The notes under the pieces are model-generated. The model worked only from the letters and a program-made list of their open reading frames with translations. It ran no database searches and was not told where the DNA came from. From Xiphias gladius (lineage: Eukaryota > Chordata > Actinopteri > Istiophoriformes > Xiphiidae): a stretch of DNA of 64,000 bases. Made by a program: the position numbers and the translations under genes. This document shows positions 43,413 to 55,778 of this stretch, piece by piece; within the stretch, counting starts at the first letter, position 1, and each line of letters begins with the position of its first letter. The stretch lies in contig NC_053410.1 in NCBI RefSeq assembly GCF_016859285.1, positions 129,194-193,193 on the forward strand, given 5' to 3'.

Positions 43413-46400
43413 ATGACGACTGCAGCTCGGTGGGCATCGTACTCCTGTGGCCGCTGGAAGCAGAGAAGAAAACTGACAGGTGAGTCCAGGTGGTTTTCAT
43501 CAGTCCACTCAGCAGATCTGGATACGTGAAAGTTTTAATGATATGACGTATGTTCAGGAGTTCAGATGGCAACAAAGTACAGAGGTCTGGCTGAGGATGA
43601 TGAAAGTGATGAAGAGCAGAGAGATGAAACCGACACAACAAATAAAAAACATCAACTGAACAAAAAACTGCTGGATCACTTCAGATACTTGGCTGCTACC
43701 AACCAGGACACCGACCAGGTAAGAGGGGGAGAGCAGGAGGAAAGAGAACATAGCACAGTGCAAGTTCCACATAGAGATGTATAGTAATAATAATAGTAAT
43801 AACAATAATACTGATAGTAATACTAATACTACTAATACTACTACTACTAATAATAATGATAAGATTAAGAATCAGACTGATCATAATAATTGTAGCAGTG
43901 GGTGTTGAGCAAGATCATGGGGGCAGTTGGTGGTTTGCAGTCACAAATCCAGACTCTGCAGCTCCAGGGGCAGAAATACCTGCAGAAAGCGACAGGACGA
44001 GAGAGGAGAGAGACGAGGAAGAACAAAACTACGGGAGAGAGAAGAAGCCAATCTACCTGATTACGTGACTACATGATTAGTTTCATCTGGCTTCATAGAT
44101 AAATACAGCTGGGTGTCATCTGCATAGCAATGGAGGTTTATGTGGCGCTTCTTGATAATGTTACCTAAAGAAAGCATATACTGTATAGAGTGAAAAGTAT
44201 CAGTCCCAGCACAGAACCCTGTGGAACTCCCATGAATAACCTTTGTGTCCACGGAAGAGTCATTGTTAACATGAACAAACTGGAATCTATCCGATAAATA
44301 TGACTTAAACCAGCCTAGTGGGGTTCCTTAAGCCCAATGACATGTTCCAGTCTCTAATAAAATCTTATGATCGCTCGGGTCCAATGGTAAATGCACTGCA
44401 CTTATATAGAGCCTTTCTAGTCGTATTGAGCAATCATAGTGCTTTACATTACATACCAAATTCACCCATGCACACACACATTCATCCAGGGCTTTTCTAT
44501 ACAAACAGCGCTTTCTATACACACAACATTCGCATACCGATGATACATCGGAGGCAATTTGGGGTTCAGTATCTTGCCCAAGGATACATGGACATGCGGA
44601 CTAGACTAGCTGGGGATCGAAACACCCACCTTCTGGTTAGTGGACGACCTGCTCTACCTCCCAAGCCACAGCCGCACCAATGCAGCACCAAGAACTAGGA
44701 GGACAATTATAGAGACAAGTCCATTGTCTGAGGCCGCGAGAAGATCATCGTTAACTTTCACCAGTGCTGTTTTTGTGCTATGACTTGCTCTGAATCCTGA
44801 CTGAAAATTCCACCATTCCTATGCAAATAATCACGCAATTGGTTTGCAACCGCTTTTTCAAGGATTTTAGAAGTAAAGGGGAGGTTGGATATACAGTAGG
44901 TCTATAATTGGCTAAAACATCTGGATCCAGAATAGGCTTCTTAAGAAGAGGTTTAATTACTGACACAGACAATAAGGAAGAAACAAAGAGTGAAGAAAAG
45001 AAAAAAGAAATGCGAAAGTAGCCAGGTGTTGTATTAAACAGCATTTAAAACAGTAAGGTTTCATATCAGTTCACCTGTATTTTCAGTTTTGATCAGTTAG
45101 TTAAAAAAGGTCATCATCCTAATCATGTTTGTGTATCATTGCGTGTTTGTGTATCTCTGTGTGTCTGTGTGTGTCTTGTGTGTGTTCAGGTGGACGTGGG
45201 TTTTCTGGATGACTTGATCTCAGATGGAGCCGATCCAAACAGCTCAGACAGATATGGACAAACCGTTCTGCACGAGGTCAACACAAGAGTTTTATTTTTC
45301 TCTACTCTTCAGTTTCATTTGTTTGGTTTGGTAATTACAAAGCAGAACAAACACTGAACACGTGGAACATTTGACATGAAAAACAGCCGGAAGCTTGCAG
45401 ATTTTTTCCTTAATACAACTCCTGCTTGGTTTTAAGGTTCCTGTCATTTGTCTTTATTTGTACATTTAAAGACAAACTGCATTAGAAAAAAATTGACGAG
45501 CTATTTTACTGTAAACATCTTTGTAACCAGGCTGTTTTTTGGACCATCACACACAAACACTGCTGTGTGTGTGTGTTCAGATCTCCAGGGCATGGAGTGT
45601 GGATGTGATGCGGTTCTTCCTGGACCGGGGTTCAGACCTCCTCTTCCCGGATCAGTTTGGAGTCACAACCCTGCATGTGGCCTCGGCGCTGGACTACCAG
45701 GACATGGTTAGGTTCCTGCTGGACCGGAAAGGTCTGTGGATGAGACTGTCTGTCCTAGTTTTAAGTTTCTGTGGTGGTTTTAGTTTCTGTGATAGTTTTA
45801 TGTGTCTGTGGTAGTTTTATGCCTCTGTGGTGGTTTTAGTGTCTGTGGTGGTTTTAGTGTCTGTGGCGGTTTTATGTCTCTTTCAGTCATAGGGGCTTGC
45901 TCCTATGTAGCGGTGCAGGTCGGCCTTTTACATGTTAGTGCCAAGGAGCATATATGTTGACTCATATTTCGTCCATGACTATGGTATTTTGAGCCATAGA
46001 AAAGCCAAAGTCCTGCCCCATTTTCAAGCTGATCTCTGGTCCTCTGGTCTGTGGCAGATGGGGTATATTCTCAGTCAGTGTGTCTCTAAAGGTGAATCAT
46101 ATGTTTGAGGATTTCTGTCCAAATTTGAGGTAAGAAGATCTCTGCCGAAACGGAAAGAAACATTTTAACAACTGCTCATTTGTATGATGAAAAAACAGTC
46201 AGTTTGTCAGCACTAGTAAGGTTTTGATAGTCCATATCTGGCAAAGACTCATTGGAGCTGTAGTTGTTGAACGTACAGGACAGATCAGATCTACAGAATC
46301 TTGATCACTAGGTTTGTCTCTGTCTGTGTGTGTATTGTCCTCAGCTGATCCAGAGGCTCGGACTCTCCTGGACCAGCAGACTCCTCTTCACTATGCTGCA

Positions 46401-55400: not shown

Positions 55401-55778
55401 CAGATCAATGCGACCATCACTGAGGTCTCCAGGCAGAAAAACTGGAACCTGAGAAACAGTTTCTGAATGAGATTGGAGATTCTGCCTGTGTGCCACCGTG
55501 CTGCTGGTCTAACACTTAATCCCTTCTTTCTCAGAGTCCAGATGGATCGGTACCTGAAGAACCACAGTCAGGAGAATAAGGACCAGCAGAACCTGGGGCT
55601 TCAGGAACACAACATGCAGCACCAGCAGAAACAGAAGCTGCAGAACCAGGAGATTCAGGAACAGAACCAAGAGAACAAGGTCCAGCAGAACCAGGAGTTT
55701 CAGGCCATCCGAGCAGAGATGATGCAGCTCCGGTCTCTGGTCCAGCAGTTGGTTCATAACAGGACTGAATCAGGTTAA
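43413..55778 (+). CDS. Ankyrin-repeat TRP-like cation channel, 18 exons, subfamily unassigned
   Basis: Exons: 43413-43479, 43558-43718, 45190-45276, 45581-45731, 46345-46506, 48601-48710, 48872-48989, 49279-49307, 49394-49485, 49703-49817, 49941-50111, 50745-50815, 51656-51823, 53601-53719, 53973-54222, 55038-55245, 55335-55393, 55535-55778 (TAA). All phases agree; 2382 nt, 793 residues. Residues about 77-246 form four or five ankyrin repeats ([46 protein letters not shown]). A linker ends [11 protein letters not shown]. Membrane helices: S1 [16 protein letters not shown]2 [14 protein letters not shown]3 [14 protein letters not shown]4 [17 protein letters not shown]5 [20 protein letters not shown], pore, S6 [13 protein letters not shown]. 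The C-terminus is a Gln/Asn-rich coiled coil. The plan resembles TRPV/TRPC, and the LYGR, DLWNVFDW and NLLIALL signatures are TRP-like, but I cannot match a mammalian subfamily. The first exon is the least certain; a start at 43,566 is also possible. Confidence 0.85.
44050..45010 (-). mobile_element. LINE relic (reverse transcriptase) with a nested repeat, in channel intron 2
   Basis: The minus strand reads [20 protein letters not shown] (44,778-45,044, upstream RT) and [17 protein letters not shown] (44,061-44,252) with the RT active-site box YADD. Stops interrupt it. Between the two halves, 44,380-44,690 is a different dispersed repeat (GCACTTATATAGAGCCTTTC to CTACCTCCCAAGCCACAGCC), so the LINE was itself invaded. 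It is opposite to the host gene. Confidence 0.85.
45732..46344. other. Channel intron 4
   Basis: Starts with degenerate TTTTAGTGTCTGTGGTGG tandem units (45,760-45,880). The rest is unremarkable, and no exon was recognised. Confidence 0.5.
46507..48590. repeat. Two-kilobase ACTGACACCACC minisatellite filling channel intron 5
   Basis: A 12-base unit (ACTGACACCACC and variants ACTGACAGCACT, GACAACATCGCT) is repeated about 170 times with higher-order blocks. For example the block with GCTGAGAGTACCGCTCACAC occurs at about 46,631 and 46,919. Because 12 is a multiple of 3 and stops are rare, long Thr/Asp and Leu/Thr/Pro open frames run in several phases. It starts at the exon 5 donor (G^GTAGTA at 46,507) and ends 10-20 bases before the exon 6 acceptor (TTTGCAG at 48,600). 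It is read as intronic, not coding. Confidence 0.93.
50824..50914. repeat. (CA)n microsatellite in channel intron 12
   Basis: About 45 CA units starting 8 bases past the exon 12 donor. The rest of the intron (50,915-51,655) is AT-rich with nothing recognised. Confidence 0.97.
51880..52200. repeat. CTCGCAAACAGA(CA)n minisatellite in channel intron 13
   Basis: About twelve units of CTCGCAAACAGACACACACA with variable CA length, starting 60 bases past the exon 13 donor. Confidence 0.95.
52325..52887. mobile_element. MITE-family copy, reverse orientation, in channel intron 13
   Basis: Contains ACTTTTACTGCAGTTTACTGG and ends GTACTTCCTCCACCTCTGG. It shares AAACAGTAAAACAGTCAC with 16,940 and AACAGCAAAACAGTCAAAC with 30,390. 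Confidence 0.6.
53727..53830 (+). repeat. (GT)n microsatellite next to the channel exon 14 donor
   Basis: About 50 GT units on the sense strand beginning 7 bases after the GTCAGA donor of the S5 exon. It makes up almost half of the 253-base intron. Confidence 0.97.
53973..54222 (+). CDS. Pore-loop and S6 exon of the TRP-like channel
   Basis: 250 nt. It encodes a pore turret ([15 protein letters not shown]), a pore helix and filter region ([19 protein letters not shown]) and S6 ending [15 protein letters not shown]. The usual GxGD-type TRPV filter is not seen; an acidic VDEYE stretch occupies its place. The acceptor at 53,972 is preferred because it keeps the frame open; an alternative acceptor CCACCAG inside the exon is also in phase. 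Confidence 0.8.
55535..55778 (+). CDS. Last exon of the TRP-like channel, Gln/Asn-rich coiled coil
   Basis: Begins [19 protein letters not shown], continues with repeated QxQ, QNQE and [11 protein letters not shown] words, and ends [14 protein letters not shown]. Hydrophobic heptad spacing (LRSLVQQLV) at the end suggests an oligomerising coiled coil, as in the tails of other tetrameric channels. Confidence 0.85.

Follow-up and report, generated by a model that had tools for sequence, protein, structure and literature searches.

We estimate at about 0.6 the probability that a 64,000 nucleotide stretch of the Xiphias gladius genome (contig NC_053410.1, positions 129,194 to 193,193; hereafter the window) carries, at 43413-55778 on its + strand, an intact-looking gene for a six-helix, divergent TRP channel that has TRPVL-like signature residues and most likely represents a vertebrate relative of the superfamily's TRPV/TRPVL/TRPA side. 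Judged by its match to the Ion_trans family and by its fingerprint residues, the predicted protein is a TRP-superfamily (group I) ankyrin channel, and sequence comparison supports its departure from the mammalian TRP subfamilies in the features compared, while membership of TRPVL (TRP vanilloid-like) would be a lead to follow. A first-pass annotation of the same DNA had proposed an ankyrin channel of TRP type with no obvious mammalian subfamily, encoded by 18 exons and 793 amino acids; the in-phase exons, single open frame, ankyrin repeats and channel domain that it described stood up, and its exon count and length did not.

The best spliced model joins 17 exons into one open frame of 735 amino acids (710 from the second Met), which closes at a TAA stop codon (55776-55778). 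All 16 introns are GT-AG with consistent phases. None of 200 base shuffles of the coding sequence stayed open, the other two frames carry 31 and 29 stops, and the GC content at third codon positions is 0.65 vs 0.43 for the GC content of the introns. Because the exons were picked for openness of frame, the ordered homology over separate exons is stronger evidence than openness: Ank_2 matches best at amino acids 81-161, Ank_5 at 166-206 and Ion_trans at 330-571.

Seven families were reported up to an E-value of 0.1 when the 735 amino acid model was scanned with Pfam. They include Ank (6.2e-22), Ank_2 and further ankyrin models, as well as Ion_trans (PF00520, 2.4e-16), whose profile is covered from 4 to 240 of 241. 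PKD_channel, the sole polycystin model matched, lies over S4-S6 (6.6e-6, 26.1 bits vs a cut-off of 22.4). Neither TRP_2, a marker of TRPC, nor the melastatin (LSDAT) N-terminus of TRPM is among the seven, ankyrins standing in place of the latter. By eye we count four clear ankyrin repeats (amino acids 96-228), preceded by a partial repeat and followed by a degenerate one; four or five had been claimed earlier. Hydropathy segments rise above threshold at the places of S1-S6. In the Gln-rich tail (Gln at 21/80 residues), a 21-residue stretch has hydrophobic residues at 6/6 a/d positions, which 13 of 2000 shuffles equal. The three motifs quoted in the first-pass annotation are present; in one of them, KHVRAFR/LMGPF, the two halves are separated by the intron that runs from 51823 to 53601.

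Exon 1 (43413-43479) contains the start Met chosen earlier or could be a 5' untranslated exon; it has a strong donor (CAG|GTGAGT) and is in phase with 43558, an acceptor that is itself weak (-2.8). This exon is thus possible and optional, and the start codon may lie instead at 43566, within exon 2 (43558-43718, donor CAG|GTAAGA). Exon 3 (45190-45276), with a weak donor (-1.7), encodes the partial ankyrin repeat and the start of the first clear one. Further repeats are encoded by exon 4 (45581-45731; in-phase join, Pfam) and exon 5 (46345-46506), whose donor is weak (-3.3) and which is followed by a long intronic minisatellite. This array (46512-48582) begins 6 bp past the last base of exon 5, repeats the 12-bp unit ACTGACACCACC in about 173 copies and, in frames of either strand, contains no stop over hundreds of codons (TDTTTD repeats). 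Exon 6 (48601-48710) ends the last clear repeat and holds the degenerate one, and the linker follows in exon 7 (48872-48989) and in the 29-bp exon 8 (49279-49307, donor CCA|GTAAGT); exons 6 and 7 were accepted on their in-phase joins. The pre-S1 helix with its conserved Trp (KWKLYG) lies in exon 9 (49394-49485; in-phase join, alignment). The membrane region, with in-phase joins and Pfam as the basis for exons 10, 12 and 13, runs through exon 10 (S1, 49703-49817), exon 11 (S2, 49941-50053, with an alternative donor at 50111), exon 12 (S3-S4, 51656-51823), exon 13 (S4-S5 linker and S5, 53601-53719) and exon 14 (pore helix, TLVDE filter and S6, 54018-54222), where Ion_trans scores 63.8 bits with acceptor 54018 vs 60.6 with the alternative acceptor 54030. 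Exon 15 (55038-55245; in-phase join, alignment) encodes the TRP-domain helix, with Ala replacing Trp, and the region behind it; exon 16 (55335-55393; in-phase join) and exon 17 (55535-55778), with the Gln-rich tail, the short heptad segment and the TAA stop, complete the + strand model.

The S2-S3 junction deserves separate treatment. Donor 50111 has the better splice score (6.9) and puts the exon at 51656 out of frame, whereas donor 50053 (1.3) restores the frame and, joined to 51656, gives the best-scoring join for Ion_trans (63.8 bits); its weak score relative to 50111 counts against the join that we prefer. With donor 50111 and no extra exon, Ion_trans reaches 58.2 bits, a version that is out of frame and had one base dropped for the test. 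When we enumerated right-phase, stop-free single exons between 50111 and 51656 with rough splice scores, none had both sites at or above 0, and a relaxed list holds weak candidates only. One of these, 50610-50728 (site scores -0.4 and -0.2), was rejected in combination with donor 50111 for its poor splice sites and lower Ion_trans score (54.0 bits, about 10 bits lower). Since this version is 794 amino acids long, close to 793, the earlier model probably included that exon with donor 50111. Pairwise alignment of S2-S3 with TRPA1 scores 37 with donor 50053, with a gap-free linker, and 25 for the long version; a four-sequence MAFFT alignment did place gaps in the linker.

We compared the protein at the 12 fingerprint positions of Table 1 in PMC9242649, in human TRPA1 numbering. 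In the available part of that source, 95% of TRPs have at least 9/12 fingerprint residues and non-TRP rows have at most 8. The fish protein has W711, R716, N726, G857, Y884, Y909, F944, N954, L956, I957, A958 and A975, a score of 9/12 that reaches the TRP threshold, and its departures from the fingerprint are Arg716, Asn726 and Ala975. In the table, TRPVL is the one TRP row with both Asn726 (in S1) and Ala975 (the position of the TRP-box Trp), and this row has no consensus at 716. It further shares Trp711, Gly857, Phe/Tyr884, Asn954, Ile957 and Ala958. TRPVL enters the comparison through this published consensus row only, which, in the part of the source available, derives from a set of cnidarian and annelid sequences. 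In TRPA1, TRPV1 and the fish protein the distance from the Trp to position 726 is the same, 15 residues; position 716 is poorly aligned, as TRPV1 gets Lys there and the table puts its Phe elsewhere (434).

The same residues set the protein apart from better known channels. The TRP-box Trp of TRPV, TRPC, TRPM and TRPN is replaced by Ala, and the TRPA1 pair Gly958/Arg975 by Ala/Ala. By our own reading of the published table (rTRPV1 563-591), the spacing from the S4-S5 Gly to the S5 aromatic residue is 27 in the fish protein, TRPA1, TRPM8, TRPC5 and TRPN1 and 28 in TRPV1; the extra S4-S5 residue is present in all five TRPVs that we aligned and not in the fish protein. TRPA and TRPN channels have a long and a very long ankyrin array, respectively, in contrast to the approximately five repeats of the fish protein, which with Ala at the TRP-box Trp leave the TRPN hallmarks unmatched. 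Its TLVD filter has Val where Gly stands in Inactive (TLGD) and PKD2 (ILGD), and shares with TRPV5/6 (TIID) an Asp without a preceding Gly. In the available part of PMC9242649 the filter Gly is 86.3% conserved.

A search of solved structures returned 202 distinct PDB sequences up to an E-value of 10, and the matches given here are from the best 60. The insect TRPV channel Inactive (9nvn chain B) was the best match (6.7e-12), from the pre-S1 helix to the TRP helix, followed by polycystin-2 (9.4e-11), TRPV6 (1.1e-10), TRPV5 (5.9e-10) and PKD2L1 (1.9e-8), and lower down by TRPV4 (1.1e-7), the TRPM2 chanzyme (8.3e-7) and TRPV1 (1.3e-6). TRPA1 was matched by 7ykr (1.6e-7, query 73-296) and, over the pre-S1 to TRP helix region, by 6wj5 (7.2e-7, query 2-298); with an earlier version of our query it fell outside the best 60. 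No TRPC or NOMPC structure was among the 60 of the final search, and the PDB lists examined named no TRPVL entry. Ankyrin matches to many PDB entries are generic and were left out of the classification. Over S4-S6, identity to ten reference channels ranges from 18.5 to 29.4%: Nanchung 29.4, Inactive 29.2, TRPV6 27.2, TRPV5 26.2, PKD2 24.6, TRPV1 23.4, TRPM8 22.3, TRPC3 20.1, TRPA1 19.5 and NOMPC 18.5%. The phmmer scores for the same region are 53.8 bits for Inactive, 48.2 for PKD2, 46.7 for TRPV6, 40.9 for TRPV5, 37.9 for Nanchung, 28.6 for TRPV1, 23.8 for TRPM8, 22.8 for TRPC3 and 22.1 for NOMPC. The low identities, the TRP-box Ala, the Ala958/Ala975 pair and the 27-residue spacing agree with the earlier claim of a departure from TRPA1, TRPC, TRPV and TRPN.

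A tree of S4-S6 was built from 11 sequences, and nine trees (one free and eight constrained) were compared by approximately unbiased (AU) tests; none of the nine trees was rejected at 5%. Therefore neither nesting in a mammalian subfamily nor a new clade is established. The grouping with TRPV5/6 came closest to rejection (p-AU 0.056) and was excluded by the columns for bp-RELL (bootstrap proportion by resampling of estimated log-likelihoods) and ELW (expected likelihood weight). The tree does not place the protein firmly inside TRPV, TRPC or TRPA, an outcome that would have refuted the earlier interpretation; a TRP ankyrin channel departing from mammalian subfamilies in residues, spacing and S4-S6 identity is what survives of that interpretation. 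A pattern search of virus and prokaryote contigs with six patterns, one of which contained an assumed residue, gave one viral and 23 genome matches, none confirmed by tblastn; a confirmed relative was not expected because these collections hold viruses and prokaryotes.

Several results weigh against placing the channel on the TRPV/TRPVL/TRPA side. The fish protein sits on a branch of 0.94 substitutions/site with no supported sister group, and a branch joining TRPV, TRPC/N and TRPM without it has support of 74.2/37. The AU values spread over competing placements (0.70 outside TRPV, 0.53 with PKD2, 0.48 inside TRPV, 0.31 with TRPM8, 0.28 with TRPA1 and 0.26 with TRPC/N), and TRPA1 scores lowest of all ten reference channels when S4-S6 is compared on its own (20.0 bits). 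The TRPVL consensus has Trp944, Phe956 and Phe909, where the fish protein has Phe, Leu and Tyr, these being consensus residues of TRPVL rather than strict definers. Counted from the table, row identities are 9/12 for TRPM, 8/11 for TRPVL and 8/12 for TRPV; the totals are therefore non-discriminating, and two rare residues carry the likeness to TRPVL. Furthermore, the channel is known here from the genomic sequence of one species alone.

Part of this evidence could be claimed by other explanations. The rank of Inactive among the solved structures, the top S4-S6 identities of Nanchung and Inactive, and AU values that allow grouping in TRPV (0.48) and nesting with Inactive/Nanchung (0.31) would suit an invertebrate-type TRPV that has survived in a vertebrate and evolves fast, either TRPVA (Inactive/OSM-9) or TRPVB (Nanchung/OCR), which in the available part of PMC9664204 are lost in vertebrates. 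We think such a survivor unlikely: Inactive and Nanchung match each other at 98.6 bits over S4-S6 vs 53.8 for Inactive and the fish protein, and the latter has neither the TRP-box Trp nor the extra S4-S5 residue of all five aligned TRPVs, its linker being one residue shorter than that of Inactive. The second-ranked PDB match instead points toward polycystins, and the protein might belong to a separate orphan lineage between group I TRPs and polycystins; polycystin-2 is level with TRPV6 in that search, PKD_channel is above its cut-off, the PKD2 grouping has a p-AU of 0.53 and Tyr884 is common to PKD2 and TRPML1. However, the fish protein has the group I pre-S1 Trp and S4-S5 Gly, both missing from the PKD2 row, which scores 6 against its 9/12, and it carries ankyrin repeats, which PKD2 is not known to have, so that we regard an orphan lineage as quite unlikely.

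The weak splice sites raise the matter of decay, in the form of a pseudogene or of a fish TRP copy with a broken frame. To keep the frame across S2-S3, donor 50053 has to be used over the stronger, out-of-frame 50111, and the donors at 46506 and 45276 are weak as well. Against this stand the 17 stop-free exons, the uniformly GT-AG introns, the compositional contrast between third codon positions and introns, and the nearly complete Ion_trans profile match, and we consider decay improbable. An intact, divergent relative of the TRPV/TRPVL/TRPA side is the reading that we retain.

From the gene structure, domains and residues, which are read directly, we infer how tetramer, permeation, gating and role might be arranged in such a channel. 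Four subunits would surround one pore. The ankyrin domain would form a skirt in the cytosol and a site for ligands or partners, and its coupling to S6 and the TRP helix would run through the S4-S5 linker and the pre-S1 helix; tetramer assembly may be aided by the heptad segment near the C-terminus. A TRP helix without Trp would suggest coupling of the TRPA1 or TRPVL kind, not that of TRPV. We expect a Ca2+-permeable cation channel because the TLVD filter keeps the cation-binding acid, with Val where most TRPs have Gly. Its role is probably sensory or epithelial, as far as sequence can tell.

Parkin lies upstream of the TRP-type channel gene on the same + strand, and about 3 kb separate its last identified exon from the first of the 17 joined exons. 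Parkin is represented by its ubiquitin-like domain (31574-31852, 4e-10), RING1 (37642-37914, with parkin as best PDB match, 2.3e-21), IBR (38432-38700, 2.7e-7) and, from the C-terminal part, an IBR/RING2 piece (40230-40355, 2.3e-9). The gene is compact, these pieces lying within about 9 kb (31574-40355), whereas human parkin exceeds 1 Mb. Between its exons, a TGATGA-rich tandem array (38743-39052) reads as poly-D or poly-M in two open + frames. On the - strand, a STAR dimerisation domain (14050-14592, 1e-15) resembles that of QKI, a neighbour of PRKN at human 6q26. Open reading frames at 25957-27635 (-) look like exons of a further gene, one of them with a leucine-zipper-like stretch (TPSQIAELHFLRARVRELEREKAELSAENQRLKNML), and matched no Pfam family above its cut-off. 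A second long minisatellite (59003-60094) repeats an 18-bp unit in about 63 copies, and each of its strands has open frames longer than 340 codons. CA microsatellites, minisatellites, a reverse transcriptase open reading frame and gene pieces of vertebrate appearance give the window a fish-like character, and an Rfam scan of it at gathering scores gave no matches.

Explanations of how fishes sense temperature, chemicals and mechanical stimuli draw on inventories of their TRPs. In the available part of PMC12729289, zebrafish has 38 TRPs, tilapia 32 and gar 27, all in the subfamilies TRPA, C, M, ML, N, P and V, and in that of PMC9664204, TRPV7 and TRPV8 are absent from gar and teleosts. The accessible portions of this count, of the TRPV survey PMC9664204 and of the notothenioid survey PMC8857925 contain no such gene, and PRKN, PARK2, QKI, PACRG and AGPAT4 do not occur in the available main text of PMC9664204. 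The open-licence records listed in our literature searches, and the consulted passages of the papers cited here, mention neither a TRPVL from a vertebrate nor a fish TRP of any subfamily beyond those seven. Gene databases may well already carry the gene under some TRP-like name.

A broader and more doubtful proposal is that ray-finned fishes keep, beside parkin, a TRPVL-type channel whose Ca2+ filter lacks glycine. It would belong to an old class of animal sensors that disappeared in the lineage leading to mammals and was overlooked when vertebrate TRPs were counted. The published fish counts, in their available parts, offer no category for an ankyrin TRP beyond TRPA, TRPC, TRPN and TRPV. The Val-containing filter poses a clear question of selectivity and, if true, a fifth vertebrate ankyrin TRP type would alter trees of TRP evolution and offer a new candidate sensor.

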